Counted from the stretch's first letter, positions 37,361 through 41,927 are shown. The stretch: DNA of 64,000 bases from Methanobacteriota archaeon (GCA_029547145.1 JAKPPV010000022.1:124001-188000); one strand, 5' to 3'. Translations and numbers: made by a program. The notes: a model not told the origin generated them from the sequence alone.

Positions 37361-39301
37361 ATGACCGAAAAGGCCGGCATCATCGCCGAACTGGGTGAAC
37401 AGGAGATCCTGTTTCCGGCTCTGGTCCAGCAGGCCCTGGTCGCGAACGACCATGTCAAATACTACTTCTCGCTTCTGCAGACGGCGCGGCAGCGTGCAGA
37501 GCACCCGGGCCAGACCCCCTCGACGCTCAGGGCTGAACGGGAGGCGGCAGGGATCGAGGATCCGACCCTCGATGGGGTCGTTGTCGGCACGGTCCGCACC
37601 GGGGAGGGGCGTTACGCCATACCCCAGCTGGCCCGCATCCTCGCCGGGATCCGGACCTCGATCGAGACGATGATTCGCCCGGTCCAGACCGCCCCGGGGG
37701 AGGGGGAGGTCTTCGAAAAACGACTGAATAGTTTCCCATTCCTGGAGCCCGGCGAGTCCCGGGACGAGATCACCACCGAAGAAGTGAGTGCGATCACATC
37801 GGGCGACCGGACAATGGGAGACAGTCCGCACCTCCTGGTCATGGACCTTCACCGGGCGCTGAACGAACTGCTCTCTGTCCTTTCGAACGAGACGGTCGAG
37901 GGAGCCCAGACCTACCTCCTGACCGAGGAAGACCGTGACCTGGTCGGTGCCTTCATGGCTGGTCTTCACCGCACCGCCCACCTGAAGTTCGGCCACCCGG
38001 GCCTGGGCACGACCGCAACGCGGGTTGGGGAACGGCTCCTGATCCAGAACGATATCGGCCTGACCGATGCACATGTCCTGGTGATCGCAGTCGGGGATCT
38101 CACGGTCAACATCACCTATACGGACGTCCATATGGCCCGGCTCGAGTTTTTCCAGTCACTCTTCGAGGCCCACGGGATCGAATGGACCGATACACTCACC
38201 CGAAAGAGCGAGAAGGGTGCCGTACGCGGGGCGTACCACCTTGCCGTCGGGACCTTCCGGGCTGCCGATCGGGGGAGTGTGAGGGCGATCCTTGAGGAGA
38301 TCGGTGCGCGGGTGGTCTTCCTGATCGACTGGAACAGGGCGAGAAAACAGCTGCGTAACTTCCTCCTGAACAAGGACGCGATCCAGGTGCTCCGCTGGGC
38401 GGCAACCGAGGAGGTCGGTCACAGGGGATTCCTCGAGCTCGGCGGGGAACGTCTCGTCTACACCGCACTGGACTTCGGAGTCCGGATGCCGCTCCGGTAC
38501 GGTGAGCCCCTTCACCGGATACTCGGCAGGGAGAAGACGATCGAGTACCTGCGGTGGGTGCTCAGGACCACATCCGAGGGACTCTCCCAGGGTCTTCCCC
38601 GCATGCTGATCCAGGATGAGTGCCGGGCCGAACTCCGCCGGTATTTCCGCTCTGCACAGGCGGAGCTCCTGGAGATCTCCCTGGCGCATGCAACCCTGCT
38701 CTTCGACGTCGCCGAGGTGCTGGAGGCGTCCCTTTCCGCGCGACGTGCGGGAACCGGTACGGAGCGGATCGGGCGGAACGCTGTCCGGGCAAAACAATGG
38801 GAGCGGGAGGCGGACCACCTCGTCTCGGAGGTCCGCACCCTCTCCCGGCGCGTCGAGGAGGTCGGGTACTTCGTCGACCTGATCACCGCCCAGGACGACG
38901 CTCTCGATGCTCTCGAAGAGGGCTGCTTCTATACCACCCTGATCTCCGGCACGAGCTCCCCCGTCGAGATCCAGAGGGGGCTGGAGGAGTTGATCGCGCT
39001 CGCTGTGGCGTCTGCGCGTGAGTTTATCCGGGCGGTGAGCGCTGCCCAGTACGCCCATACCGGCTCATCGCGCGATGAGATGCAGGATTTTCTCGCTGCG
39101 AAGAATCGCGTGATCGCGCTCGAGCAGGAGTGCGATGAGGCATGGCGCCGGTTCGAACGCACGCTCCTGATCGAACAGCCCGACGGCCCATCGCTCCGGG
39201 TCTACGCCGAACTCTCCCGGACGATCGAGGAGTCGACCAACGCGCTGATGAAGTCGGTCTACGTCCTGCACGACAACATCTTCGGGGAGGTACGGCGATG
39301 A
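37361..39301 (+). CDS. Large protein with unknown N-terminal half and PhoU/DUF47-like C-terminal half
   Basis: A 646-residue soluble protein. The C-terminal part (about 435-646) is all helical and PhoU/DUF47-like: QWEREADHLVSEVRTLSRR, YFVDLITAQDDALDALEEG, ALEQECDEAWRRFER and RTIEESTNALMKSVYVLHDN. PhoU relatives bind metals and regulate phosphate uptake. The N-terminal 430 residues match nothing I recognise. They contain HPGLGTTATRVGERLLIQND, a segment IGARVVFLIDWNRARKQLRN, and a region rich in helices. There is no membrane segment. It overlaps the following truncated dikinase by four bases (ATGA), so the two products very likely act together. Confidence 0.65.
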   Translation: MTEKAGIIAELGEQEILFPALVQQALVANDHVKYYFSLLQTARQRAEHPGQTPSTLRAEREAAGIEDPTLDGVVVGTVRTGEGRYAIPQLARILAGIRTSIETMIRPVQTAPGEGEVFEKRLNSFPFLEPGESRDEITTEEVSAITSGDRTMGDSPHLLVMDLHRALNELLSVLSNETVEGAQTYLLTEEDRDLVGAFMAGLHRTAHLKFGHPGLGTTATRVGERLLIQNDIGLTDAHVLVIAVGDLTVNITYTDVHMARLEFFQSLFEAHGIEWTDTLTRKSEKGAVRGAYHLAVGTFRAADRGSVRAILEEIGARVVFLIDWNRARKQLRNFLLNKDAIQVLRWAATEEVGHRGFLELGGERLVYTALDFGVRMPLRYGEPLHRILGREKTIEYLRWVLRTTSEGLSQGLPRMLIQDECRAELRRYFRSAQAELLEISLAHATLLFDVAEVLEASLSARRAGTGTERIGRNAVRAKQWEREADHLVSEVRTLSRRVEEVGYFVDLITAQDDALDALEEGCFYTTLISGTSSPVEIQRGLEELIALAVASAREFIRAVSAAQYAHTGSSRDEMQDFLAAKNRVIALEQECDEAWRRFERTLLIEQPDGPSLRVYAELSRTIEESTNALMKSVYVLHDNIFGEVRR

Positions 39302-40920
39302 TGGAGCGATCCATCTTCTTCGGGCCGAACCGGGTCTTCGGTGAAGTTCCGCTGGCCCTCTTCGGCAATAAGGCGGCGGTACTGTCCCGGATGGCTGAGA
39401 TCGGTGTTCCGGTTCCACCGGGGTTCGCACTGTCGGTGCAGATCTGCGAGGAGTACTTCGCCGAAGGCCGTCGCCTGCCACGGGACGTACCGGACCTGCT
39501 CCGCCAGGGGATCTCCCAGCTGGAGGAGGCGACCGGCCTCGTCTTCGGGTCTGCACGGCGTCCCCTGCTCGTCTCGGTCCGTTCCGGAGCGCCCGTCTCG
39601 ATGCCTGGCATCATGGAGACCGTGCTGAACGTCGGCCTCAACCGGGAGACGGTCAGGGGACTGATCTCCCGCACGGGGAACCCGCGGTTCGCCTGGGACT
39701 CGTACCGTCGGTTCCTCTCCCAGTTCGGAGAGGTGGTACGTGGCATTCATCCCTCGGAGTTCAGGGAGATCCTGCGCGAAGTGATGGAGCAGGAGGATGT
39801 ACCCGACGAGAGCGAACTCGCAACGGCGGGGGTCCGGGAAGCGGCCGATCGGTTCGAGCGGCTCTTCGCGGAGACCGGAGTGACCTTTCCCACTGATACC
39901 ATGGACCAGCTGCTCGCCTGCACCGAGGCGGTGATCGCATCATGGGAGAGCCCCCGCGCCGAGGCCTTCAGACGACTCGGACTTGCGAGGGATGCGACCG
40001 GAACGGCCGTCGTGGTCCAGGCGATGGTCTTCGGCAACCTGGGAGCCGCCTCGGGCGCAGGGGTCGCCTTCACCAGGAACCCCTGGAACGGGGCACGGGA
40101 GCTCACCCTGGATTTCCGTTTCGGGGCGCAGGGGGAGGAGGTCGTCTCGGGCGATCGCTCCGGCCAGGACCAGGTGACGTTCGCCCGCGTCATGCCCGAG
40201 CAGTACGCCGCGTTGCGCTCGCTCGGGAGCCTGCTCGAACGAGAGTTCTCGGACATGCTGGATCTCGAGTTCACCATCGAGGAGGGGAGGCTGTTTCTCC
40301 TCCAGTGCCGCGCGGGGAAGAGGACTCCGCTCGCCGCCCTCCAGATCGCCGTGGACCTGGTCCGCGAGGGGTTGATCGACGAACTGGAGGGGGCTCGCCG
40401 CCTCGACGGCATCGATCCGGACCTGATTCGCATTCGCCGGATCAGGGGGACGCACTCCCCCGTGGCGAGGGGGACTCCGGCATCCGGCGGTGTGGCCGTC
40501 GGGACGTGTGCCTTCTCGGCAGAACGGGCAGAGCAGGACGCCGTCGACGGGCCCGTGGTCCTGGTTCGTCCGACTGCATCACCCGACGACATCGGCGGGA
40601 TCGATGCGGCAACCGGCCTGCTCGTGGCACGGGGGGGTCGGACCTCCCATGCCGCGGTGGTCGCCCGTGAGCTCGGGGTCGTCTGTGTCGTGAACTGCCA
40701 GGACCTCCAGGTCGATTCGCTCCGCCACCGGTGCTCCTTCGGAGAGACCGTCGTCCGTGAGGGGGAGGTGATCTCGATCGACGGCGACACCGGTGACGTC
40801 TTCCTCGGGGAGGTGGAGGTCGTCGAGGAGAGGCCGGACGACCTGCTCGCGTGCATACAGGACTGGCCGATGGGCGACCATTCCTCACGATATCAGGGAC
40901 CGGTAGGGGGACGGCGGTAG
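39298..40920 (+). CDS. Truncated pyruvate phosphate dikinase-like protein (ATP-grasp + phosphohistidine domain only)
   Basis: A 540-residue protein closely resembling the first two-thirds of pyruvate phosphate dikinase. The nucleotide-binding half has GNKAAVLSRMAEIGVPVPPG and SVRSGAPVSMPGIMETVLN. The swivelling domain carries the catalytic histidine in ARGGRTSHAAVVARELG (about residue 455). The PEP/pyruvate TIM barrel that should follow is absent. The stop lies where a convergent gene already occupies the other strand, so this is not a recent frameshift. It could phosphorylate its histidine from ATP but needs another acceptor. The coupled PhoU-like partner is the obvious candidate. The start has a GGGGAGGT site eight bases upstream. 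Confidence 0.8.
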   Translation: MMERSIFFGPNRVFGEVPLALFGNKAAVLSRMAEIGVPVPPGFALSVQICEEYFAEGRRLPRDVPDLLRQGISQLEEATGLVFGSARRPLLVSVRSGAPVSMPGIMETVLNVGLNRETVRGLISRTGNPRFAWDSYRRFLSQFGEVVRGIHPSEFREILREVMEQEDVPDESELATAGVREAADRFERLFAETGVTFPTDTMDQLLACTEAVIASWESPRAEAFRRLGLARDATGTAVVVQAMVFGNLGAASGAGVAFTRNPWNGARELTLDFRFGAQGEEVVSGDRSGQDQVTFARVMPEQYAALRSLGSLLEREFSDMLDLEFTIEEGRLFLLQCRAGKRTPLAALQIAVDLVREGLIDELEGARRLDGIDPDLIRIRRIRGTHSPVARGTPASGGVAVGTCAFSAERAEQDAVDGPVVLVRPTASPDDIGGIDAATGLLVARGGRTSHAAVVARELGVVCVVNCQDLQVDSLRHRCSFGETVVREGEVISIDGDTGDVFLGEVEVVEERPDDLLACIQDWPMGDHSSRYQGPVGGRR

Positions 40921-41927
40921 GCGGCGAGCCCCATCATCACCAGCAGGTAGAAGGCAAGGGCGATGAGGAGGACCTCGACGTACAGCACCCCCCAGCGGAA
41001 CAGGGCCGCCTCGAAACCAAGACGCTCGGCAAAGGCCGGACCGAACGCGTTCAGGGTGGCGAGCGGAGTCTGCCACCCCTGGAGAAGGGAGACCACGGGG
41101 AGGGCCACGAGGGCGCAGACCACAGTCCCCACGCCCTCCCGGCGGGTCAGCACCCGGGGCTCCAGCAGGATGAAGGGGGTGATCACCGCGAGGGCGGGGA
41201 CGATCAGCGGAAGGATCAGGGATTCGGACCCGACGAGCCCCTGTGCCCCCTCAGCGAACGCGGTGACCACAAGCCCTCCGGCGGTGACCGGAAAGAGAAG
41301 GAGCATGTGGATCCCCTTCTCGGGGACGAGCCGGACGAGGTGGAGAAGCGCCAGCGCAAGAAGCCCCCCCAGGACCCCCTCGCCGATCATGAGGGTGGCG
41401 AGCAGCAAAAGAACACCGAAGAAGAGGCCCGAGACGAGGGACGACATCCGGTCCGCGATCTCATCGATGAAGAGGACGAGCGCGTGTCCGATCGCGGCGA
41501 CGAGGAGGGCATAGAGGAAGAGCACGAGGGAGGTGATCGGCCAGGTAACGGGCCCCGCGATCCCCCCGATGTTGACGAGCAGGGCGCCGAGGCCGGTCAG
41601 GGGACTCGGCAGGAACGAGAAGAGGAGGAAGAGGGAGACCGCCCCCGCGATCGTCACCGCCGTTGTCCGGGAGACCCGGTCGAGCGCGTACGAGAAGGCA
41701 GGGAGGGTCACGGGGGCGGCAAGAGATACGGTCACGGCGAGGAGCAGGAACCCATACCCTTCCCGACCGGCGGGGGGGACCGCGAAGAGGGCGAGCGAGC
41801 AGGCGAGCCCGAGCAGGACCGGTACGACCTGCCGCCACCGTTCGGTGACCCCTCTGTCCAGGAGCTGGACAAGGACGGGCGGGACGAACACCGCCGGGGC
41901 GAACCATATCCAGGAGGGACCGGGCAT
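40893..41927 (-). CDS. Multi-pass membrane protein of unknown function
   Basis: A 344-residue protein with about ten predicted membrane helices and short loops; sequence is Leu/Val/Ala rich throughout. I recognise no family motif. A conserved-looking acidic pair lies in FIDEIADRMSSLVSG. Its 3' end overlaps the end of the dikinase-like gene by 28 bases on the opposite strand. There is no neighbour on the same strand within 90 bases except gyrA upstream (89-base gap), with which it might be co-transcribed. Confidence 0.6.
   Translation of the reverse strand: MPGPSWIWFAPAVFVPPVLVQLLDRGVTERWRQVVPVLLGLACSLALFAVPPAGREGYGFLLLAVTVSLAAPVTLPAFSYALDRVSRTTAVTIAGAVSLFLLFSFLPSPLTGLGALLVNIGGIAGPVTWPITSLVLFLYALLVAAIGHALVLFIDEIADRMSSLVSGLFFGVLLLLATLMIGEGVLGGLLALALLHLVRLVPEKGIHMLLLFPVTAGGLVVTAFAEGAQGLVGSESLILPLIVPALAVITPFILLEPRVLTRREGVGTVVCALVALPVVSLLQGWQTPLATLNAFGPAFAERLGFEAALFRWGVLYVEVLLIALAFYLLVMMGLAAYRRPPTGP

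Follow-up and report, generated by a model that had tools for sequence, protein, structure and literature searches.

The window analysed here, a stretch of 64,000 nucleotides from a Methanobacteriota archaeon (GCA_029547145.1, JAKPPV010000022.1:124001-188000), contains two genes that lie one directly behind the other on the same strand, the stop of the first overlapping the start of the second (Table 1). Gene 1 (P0001) encodes an N-terminal domain followed by a PhoU/DUF47-like tail, gene 2 (P0002) a pyruvate phosphate dikinase (PPDK) that lacks the phosphoenolpyruvate (PEP)/pyruvate barrel, and the subject of this work is the pair that they form. A first-pass annotation of the window had described the ATGA overlap, the truncated dikinase with intact ATP-binding and catalytic-histidine domains, the composite nature of gene 1 and a convergent gene on the opposite strand at the end of gene 2; all four are recovered here, the unassigned part of gene 1 amounting to about 410 residues. 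The convergent open reading frame (ORF), which has no match in Pfam or NCBIfam, is a marker of the end of gene 2 and lies outside the system.

Table 1. Features of the gene pair and its immediate surroundings, in coordinates of the window
Feature	Position	Strand	Basis
Gene 1 (P0001, 646 amino acids): N-terminal domain and PhoU/DUF47-like C-terminus	37361..39301	+	ORF
Gene 1, N-terminal domain, residues ~1-412	37361..38596	+	Invariant residues (27 sequences), AlphaFold2 model
Gene 1, PhoU/DUF47-like helical domain, residues ~413-646	38597..39298	+	Pfam PF01865 in orthologues, Foldseek 3l39
ATGA stop/start overlap of genes 1 and 2	39298..39301	+	Sequence; coupling in relatives
Gene 2 (P0002, 540 amino acids): PPDK without PEP/pyruvate barrel	39298..40920	+	Pfam, TIGR01828, PDB PPDK alignments
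Gene 2, ATP/Pi-binding (PPDK_N) part, residues ~1-387	39298..40458	+	PF01326 6.9e-38
Gene 2, swivelling phosphohistidine domain, residues ~388-510	40459..40827	+	PF00391 7.5e-21
Gene 2, codon of catalytic H451 (H455 of C. symbiosum PPDK)	40648..40650	+	Alignment; invariant in family
Convergent ORF, 344 amino acids, membrane-type, overlapping the gene 2 stop	40893..41927	-	ORF; homologue at the corresponding position in a related genome (L060)

The two proteins of the pair

Gene 2 covers positions 17-522 of the PPDK model TIGR01828, which has 865, and then ends, a span that corresponds to about residues 20-520 of PPDK, and the PPDKs of the PDB align with it over residues 4-513 with no barrel beyond. 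The motif ARGGRTSHAAVVARELG is present in this protein, the dikinase of the window, and the nucleotide-, inorganic phosphate (Pi)- and histidine-site residues that were checked are all intact and conserved across the pair family: K22, R92, G101, R135, D321, E323, Q335, R337 and H455 of the Clostridium symbiosum enzyme align with K25, R95, G104, R138, D322, E324, Q336, R338 and H451 of gene 2, and K25, R95, G104, R138, E324, Q336, R338 and H451 are invariant among the paired proteins. Thus the loss of ATP-binding residues, which the first-pass annotation had named as a reason to abandon its idea, has not occurred. The roles of these residues in C. symbiosum belong to the established knowledge of PPDK, and, since the Pi-site arginine and the glycine loop are kept, the half-reaction ATP + Pi -> AMP + pyrophosphate (PPi) + phosphohistidine would naturally be expected of gene 2.

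With the barrel, about 40% of the enzyme, gone, gene 2 alone cannot be a PPDK. Nor was the missing part found apart from it: in the genome (2.04 Mb, 93% complete) PF02896 is otherwise present solely in a 765-residue PEP synthase frame, so that, unless it lies on a missing contig, there is no barrel elsewhere to make a split PPDK, another circumstance that had been set against the original idea. The full-length PPDKs of relatives belong to a clade other than that of gene 2, and a recent truncation or decay is ruled out by the single old clade described below together with the intact residues. It is very improbable that the pair makes or uses PEP, as a remnant or alternative form of PEP metabolism, with the pyruvate site provided by gene 1 or by the PEP synthase, for although gene 2 descends from PPDK by sequence, gene 1 bears no barrel signature and a complete PEP synthase is already in the genome.

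As regards gene 1, its C-terminal ~230 residues are PhoU/DUF47-like by the profiles of its orthologues and by the predicted fold. The family PF01865 (DUF47/PhoU_div) is matched by 11 of 20 orthologues, the best at 1.9e-9, while the gene 1 of the window stays below threshold (E=0.005); in an AlphaFold2 model made from 20 orthologues (mean pLDDT 87 over the whole chain, pTM 0.65) this region resembles PhoU-like structures by Foldseek (3l39, TM 0.82, E=1.5e-4; also 2olt). The N-terminal ~410 residues, for which a profile and fold search had been proposed, gave no significant match in Pfam or PDB sequences, profile search included, nor by Foldseek against the PDB and viral models; weak YbjN-like and LAGLIDADG-like matches were not used for identification.

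The core of this N-terminal domain (residues 150-365) is nevertheless better conserved than the PhoU domain, with a mean pairwise identity of 0.57 versus 0.40. Across 27 sequences D154, H157, D162, H164, H212, Q229, N230, D231, H238, Y253, D255, H257, R260, D323, W324, N325, R328, K329 and H354 are invariant, among them six histidines (H157, H164, H212, H238, H257 and H354), and an IDWN..RK motif occupies residues 322-329, which gives the conserved core the appearance of a site for binding or catalysis.

Degenerate forms of gene 1 were also seen. A lone ORF (L054:1282-2298) in a genome that carries a full-length PPDK (G017) resembles residues 75-319 of gene 1, with the conserved residues lost and no adjoining dikinase, and at G021:C234 (L024, L131) and G004:C12 (L064) gene 1 is split into two or three frames with gene 2 open, which represents either assembly error or early decay.

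Pairing, distribution and phylogeny

Orthologues of gene 1 are present in 44 of 232 Methanomicrobiales genomes, in 16 of 40 genera, and beyond this group in two archaea of remoter kinship, whose copies are full-length, and in six bacteria (Hyphomicrobium, three Tepidiphilus species, Methylocella and Aquabacterium), the bacterial spread being under-sampled by a scan that used a single archaeal query sequence. The first-pass annotation had suggested that co-occurrence be examined across genomes, and gene 2 directly follows gene 1 in all 50 that could be checked (44 archaeal, 6 bacterial; G539 and G540, where contigs end, are left out of the count), with a spacing of -4 to +25 nucleotides in nearly all relatives. 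Likewise, in a sample of 150 Methanomicrobiales genomes each of the 22 short PPDKs has gene 1 upstream, as against none of the nine full-length ones. The pairing is far beyond chance, and the two genes are one conserved unit, which also answers the remaining objection named by the first-pass annotation, a pair not kept together in relatives. Mutual exclusion with full-length PPDK is not claimed, as the one co-occurrence (G457) equals the chance expectation.

In a tree built from the N-terminal parts of 54 PPDKs, including 27 archaeal and six bacterial paired proteins, the latter two sets form a single clade with a support of 100/100, separate from full-length and from other short PPDKs, and these other short forms make no single group. 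The distances of gene 1 and gene 2 are correlated (r=0.95, Mantel p 0.001), although shared ancestry alone gives much of this r. The pair is obligate and of single origin, and its presence in two domains of life shows that a partner of its own has durably taken the place of the PPDK barrel, a replacement distinct from the remaining truncated PPDKs of the sample.

The tree also bears on whether gene 2 could be a regulatory histidine kinase acting alone, with gene 1 as only an adaptor or inhibitor and no phosphoryl transfer between them, in the manner of VadK (Rv1127c) of Mycobacterium tuberculosis, for which no paired partner has been described and which works by binding enzymes of the methylcitrate cycle (PMC13400623). 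A PhoU-like domain, typical of regulators, would suit such an arrangement. However, the paired proteins form a clade separate from the actinobacterial short PPDKs sampled, plasmid-borne proteins that are the nearest stand-ins for VadK (itself outside the tree), gene 2 scores 413 bits against the curated cut-off of 456 of NF004531, and gene 1 is never absent, so that this explanation seems quite unlikely.

Some of the unpaired short forms have surroundings of their own. Different barrel-less PPDKs of 568-571 residues, without gene 1, are found on plasmids of Skermanella rosea (L115:3911-5617), directly after pyruvate kinase within a glyoxylate carboligase/otnI/glxR run, and of Azospirillum ramasamyi (L120:3360-5075), with pyk nearby. 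The plasmid copies of Rhodococcus opacus (L112:4878-6590) and Streptomyces atratus (L113:4953-6599) lie beside cytochrome P450 and redox genes; the former is above the NF004531 cut-off, unlike the gene 2 of the window, and both are possible relatives of VadK.

Polyphosphate and phosphate genes around the pair

The surroundings of the pair vary between lineages, and the pair is therefore portable; two of the bacterial copies are plasmid-borne. One association recurs. The gene of polyphosphate kinase (PPK1) lies within about 10 kb of the pair in 8 of the 44 pair-bearing Methanomicrobiales genomes, in 4 of 16 genera and in at least three arrangements, where about 1% per genome would be expected (P ~2e-5, counted by genus), and we regard this linkage as strong but not conclusive because it was noticed first and then tested and because the arrangement within families is perhaps partly inherited. 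In two of these genomes the run is on one strand and includes exopolyphosphatase (Ppx): in G273 (locus L124) PPK1, CHAD, Ppx, gene 1 and gene 2 follow one another, with SixA convergent, and in G025 (locus L135) PPK1, Ppx and the two genes stand in line, with convergent SixA and PhoU near. In G457 Ppx, CHAD and PPK1 face it. A PPK1-CHAD-Ppx group is divergent from the pair in G052 and G423, both with PhoU near and the latter with PstS and PstC beyond PhoU, while G016 and G495 have a divergent PPK1-CHAD some kb off and G496 has PPK1 upstream at a similar distance.

Other phosphate genes extend this picture. The pair is followed by SixA, PhoU, PstS and PstC in G377, has SixA and CHAD near in G008 and SixA downstream in G545, and is preceded by PhoU and a Pst permease in G540; taken together, SixA-family genes occur near it in five genomes of four genera, all above the TIGR00249 cut-off, and PhoU and/or Pst genes in four genera. 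PPK1 itself is carried by 22 of 22 pair-bearing versus 57 of 128 other genomes of the 150 sampled (Fisher 1.6e-7), a figure inflated by shared ancestry, and those genomes of the window's family that are at least 85% complete and without PPK1 (G306, G027, G015, G026 and G500) are all without the pair. CHAD is a polyphosphate-binding domain, and proteins that consist of it alone are often encoded in polyphosphate operons (PMC6537752), and SixA dephosphorylates a phosphohistidine carrier, NPr (PMC7948535). The CHAD proteins at L071 and L125 have a C-terminal calcineurin-type phosphoesterase domain, and that at L124 a Ppx-type domain III.

Same-strand runs such as those with PPK1, CHAD and Ppx (L124) or PPK1 and Ppx (L135) would be consistent with a polyphosphate-linked enzyme, in which gene 1 is the polyphosphate site and the pair carries out polyP(n) + AMP + PPi -> polyP(n-1) + ATP + Pi, or the reverse. 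The half-reaction of PPDK is reversible, and gene 1, with its numerous invariant His, Asp, Arg and Lys residues, would seem to hold a site for binding or catalysis and not a mere docking surface. But neither Pfam nor Foldseek recognises a polyphosphate-binding domain in gene 1, and no polyphosphate genes were seen close to the bacterial copies, so that we consider this a minor possibility.

A self-contained enzyme would be expected to have neighbours that vary widely between lineages, as they do here, and the pair might accordingly be a small-molecule phosphotransferase, gene 2 phosphorylating a metabolite bound by gene 1, much as phenylphosphate synthase or rifamycin phosphotransferase do with their substrates, with the polyphosphate neighbours incidental or indirect. 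There are precedents for split dikinases that use other acceptors (PMC7500099), and the gene 1 core is more conserved than the PhoU domain; this explanation, however, predicts neither that domain nor the recurrence of polyphosphate, SixA and Pst genes near the pair, and is in our opinion unlikely.

Further associations were considered and set aside: neighbours in branched-chain amino acid biosynthesis (L063, L077) and fatty-acid genes (Methylocella) do occur, but not consistently, and a role in anti-phage defence found no PADLOC match. In Tepidiphilus (L032:8445-10583) the pair is followed by an overlapping GT4-like glycosyltransferase frame and a metallophosphoesterase, a neighbourhood unlike the archaeal ones.

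A putative phosphotransfer pair and its known relatives

The explanation that we favour, and to which we would give an even chance, is that of a split dikinase, with a histidine charged from ATP and Pi handing its phosphoryl group on to gene 1, or to something that gene 1 binds, in the service of phosphate or polyphosphate homeostasis. As in the first half-reaction of PPDK, gene 2 would phosphorylate its own H451 from ATP and Pi, releasing AMP and PPi, and the phosphohistidine domain would then swing to gene 1 instead of to the absent pyruvate barrel. The N-terminal domain of gene 1 would take the phosphoryl group, either on itself, the receiver being one of its residues in a relay for which SixA is a possible eraser, or on an acceptor that it binds, for instance polyphosphate, and the PhoU-like tail would couple this phosphotransfer to phosphate control. 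A role in homeostasis is suggested because the charging would depend on the balance of ATP, Pi, AMP and PPi. The ATP-driven phosphohistidine carrier with a phosphate-related partner that the first-pass annotation had imagined is thus supported in part, and has gained strength from the polyphosphate, PhoU/Pst and SixA neighbourhood.

Several points weigh against this explanation. Contact and transfer between the two proteins are what we infer; the PhoU assignment depends, given the weak Pfam score of the gene 1 of the window, on orthologues and a model; and the linkage to PPK1 and its co-occurrence bear the marks of late testing and common descent already mentioned. Moreover, in the window's own genome PPK1 sits on a different contig, most pair loci do not adjoin polyphosphate genes, and there are none in the stretches read at six bacterial pair loci. 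Finally, SixA adjoins CHAD/PPX in other archaea too (PMC10892726), so that it need not act on the pair, and its presence speaks more for a polyphosphate context than for a particular role as eraser.

In a broader and more tentative formulation, the pair could be an unrecognised form of archaeal and bacterial phosphotransfer, a PPDK-derived dikinase whose charge would read ATP, Pi, AMP and PPi and would feed or control polyphosphate and phosphate uptake by handing phosphoryl groups to a PhoU-tailed protein whose acceptor domain would be new. Archaeal polyphosphate regulation is largely open, ppk1 of Methanosarcina mazei being reported not to be under classical phosphate-starvation control (PMC6864096), and the pair offers a specific and testable candidate.

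As for novelty, the first-pass annotation had spoken of a possible new system, and this holds for the pair itself, of which searches of the open-access literature gave no description (subscription papers lay outside the search), but not for all of its elements, since VadK and certain split dikinases were already known. Given ATP and Mg, VadK phosphorylates itself on the equivalent histidine (PMC13400623), and being a working histidine kinase derived from a barrel-less PPDK, it removes the novelty from that part of the idea. Both VadK and gene 2 keep the ATP-binding and histidine domains of PPDK and lack the barrel, autophosphorylation being shown for VadK only; VadK differs in its methylcitrate-cycle targets and in having no paired PhoU-like partner described. 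Phenylphosphate synthase and phenylphosphoamidate synthase (PpsAB, PasAB) are split dikinases with a non-pyruvate acceptor and a phosphohistidine intermediate (PMC7500099). Among split dikinases with another acceptor, phenylphosphate synthase offers the nearest working analogy: the pair, whose genes show two coupled polypeptides, would likewise divide a dikinase chemistry between chains, yet no PhoU-like partner has been described for these enzymes, and the likeness is one of mechanism and does not extend to homology of the partner. In these PEP-synthase-type proteins the split falls elsewhere, between the ATP-binding and the histidine parts. From PPDK itself gene 2 differs by the barrel while keeping every ATP-, Pi- and histidine-site residue, and gene 1 shares with PhoU/DUF47 (PhoU_div) proteins the C-terminal helical fold, to which a standard DUF47 protein, of ~210 residues, adds neither the N-terminal domain nor a dikinase partner.

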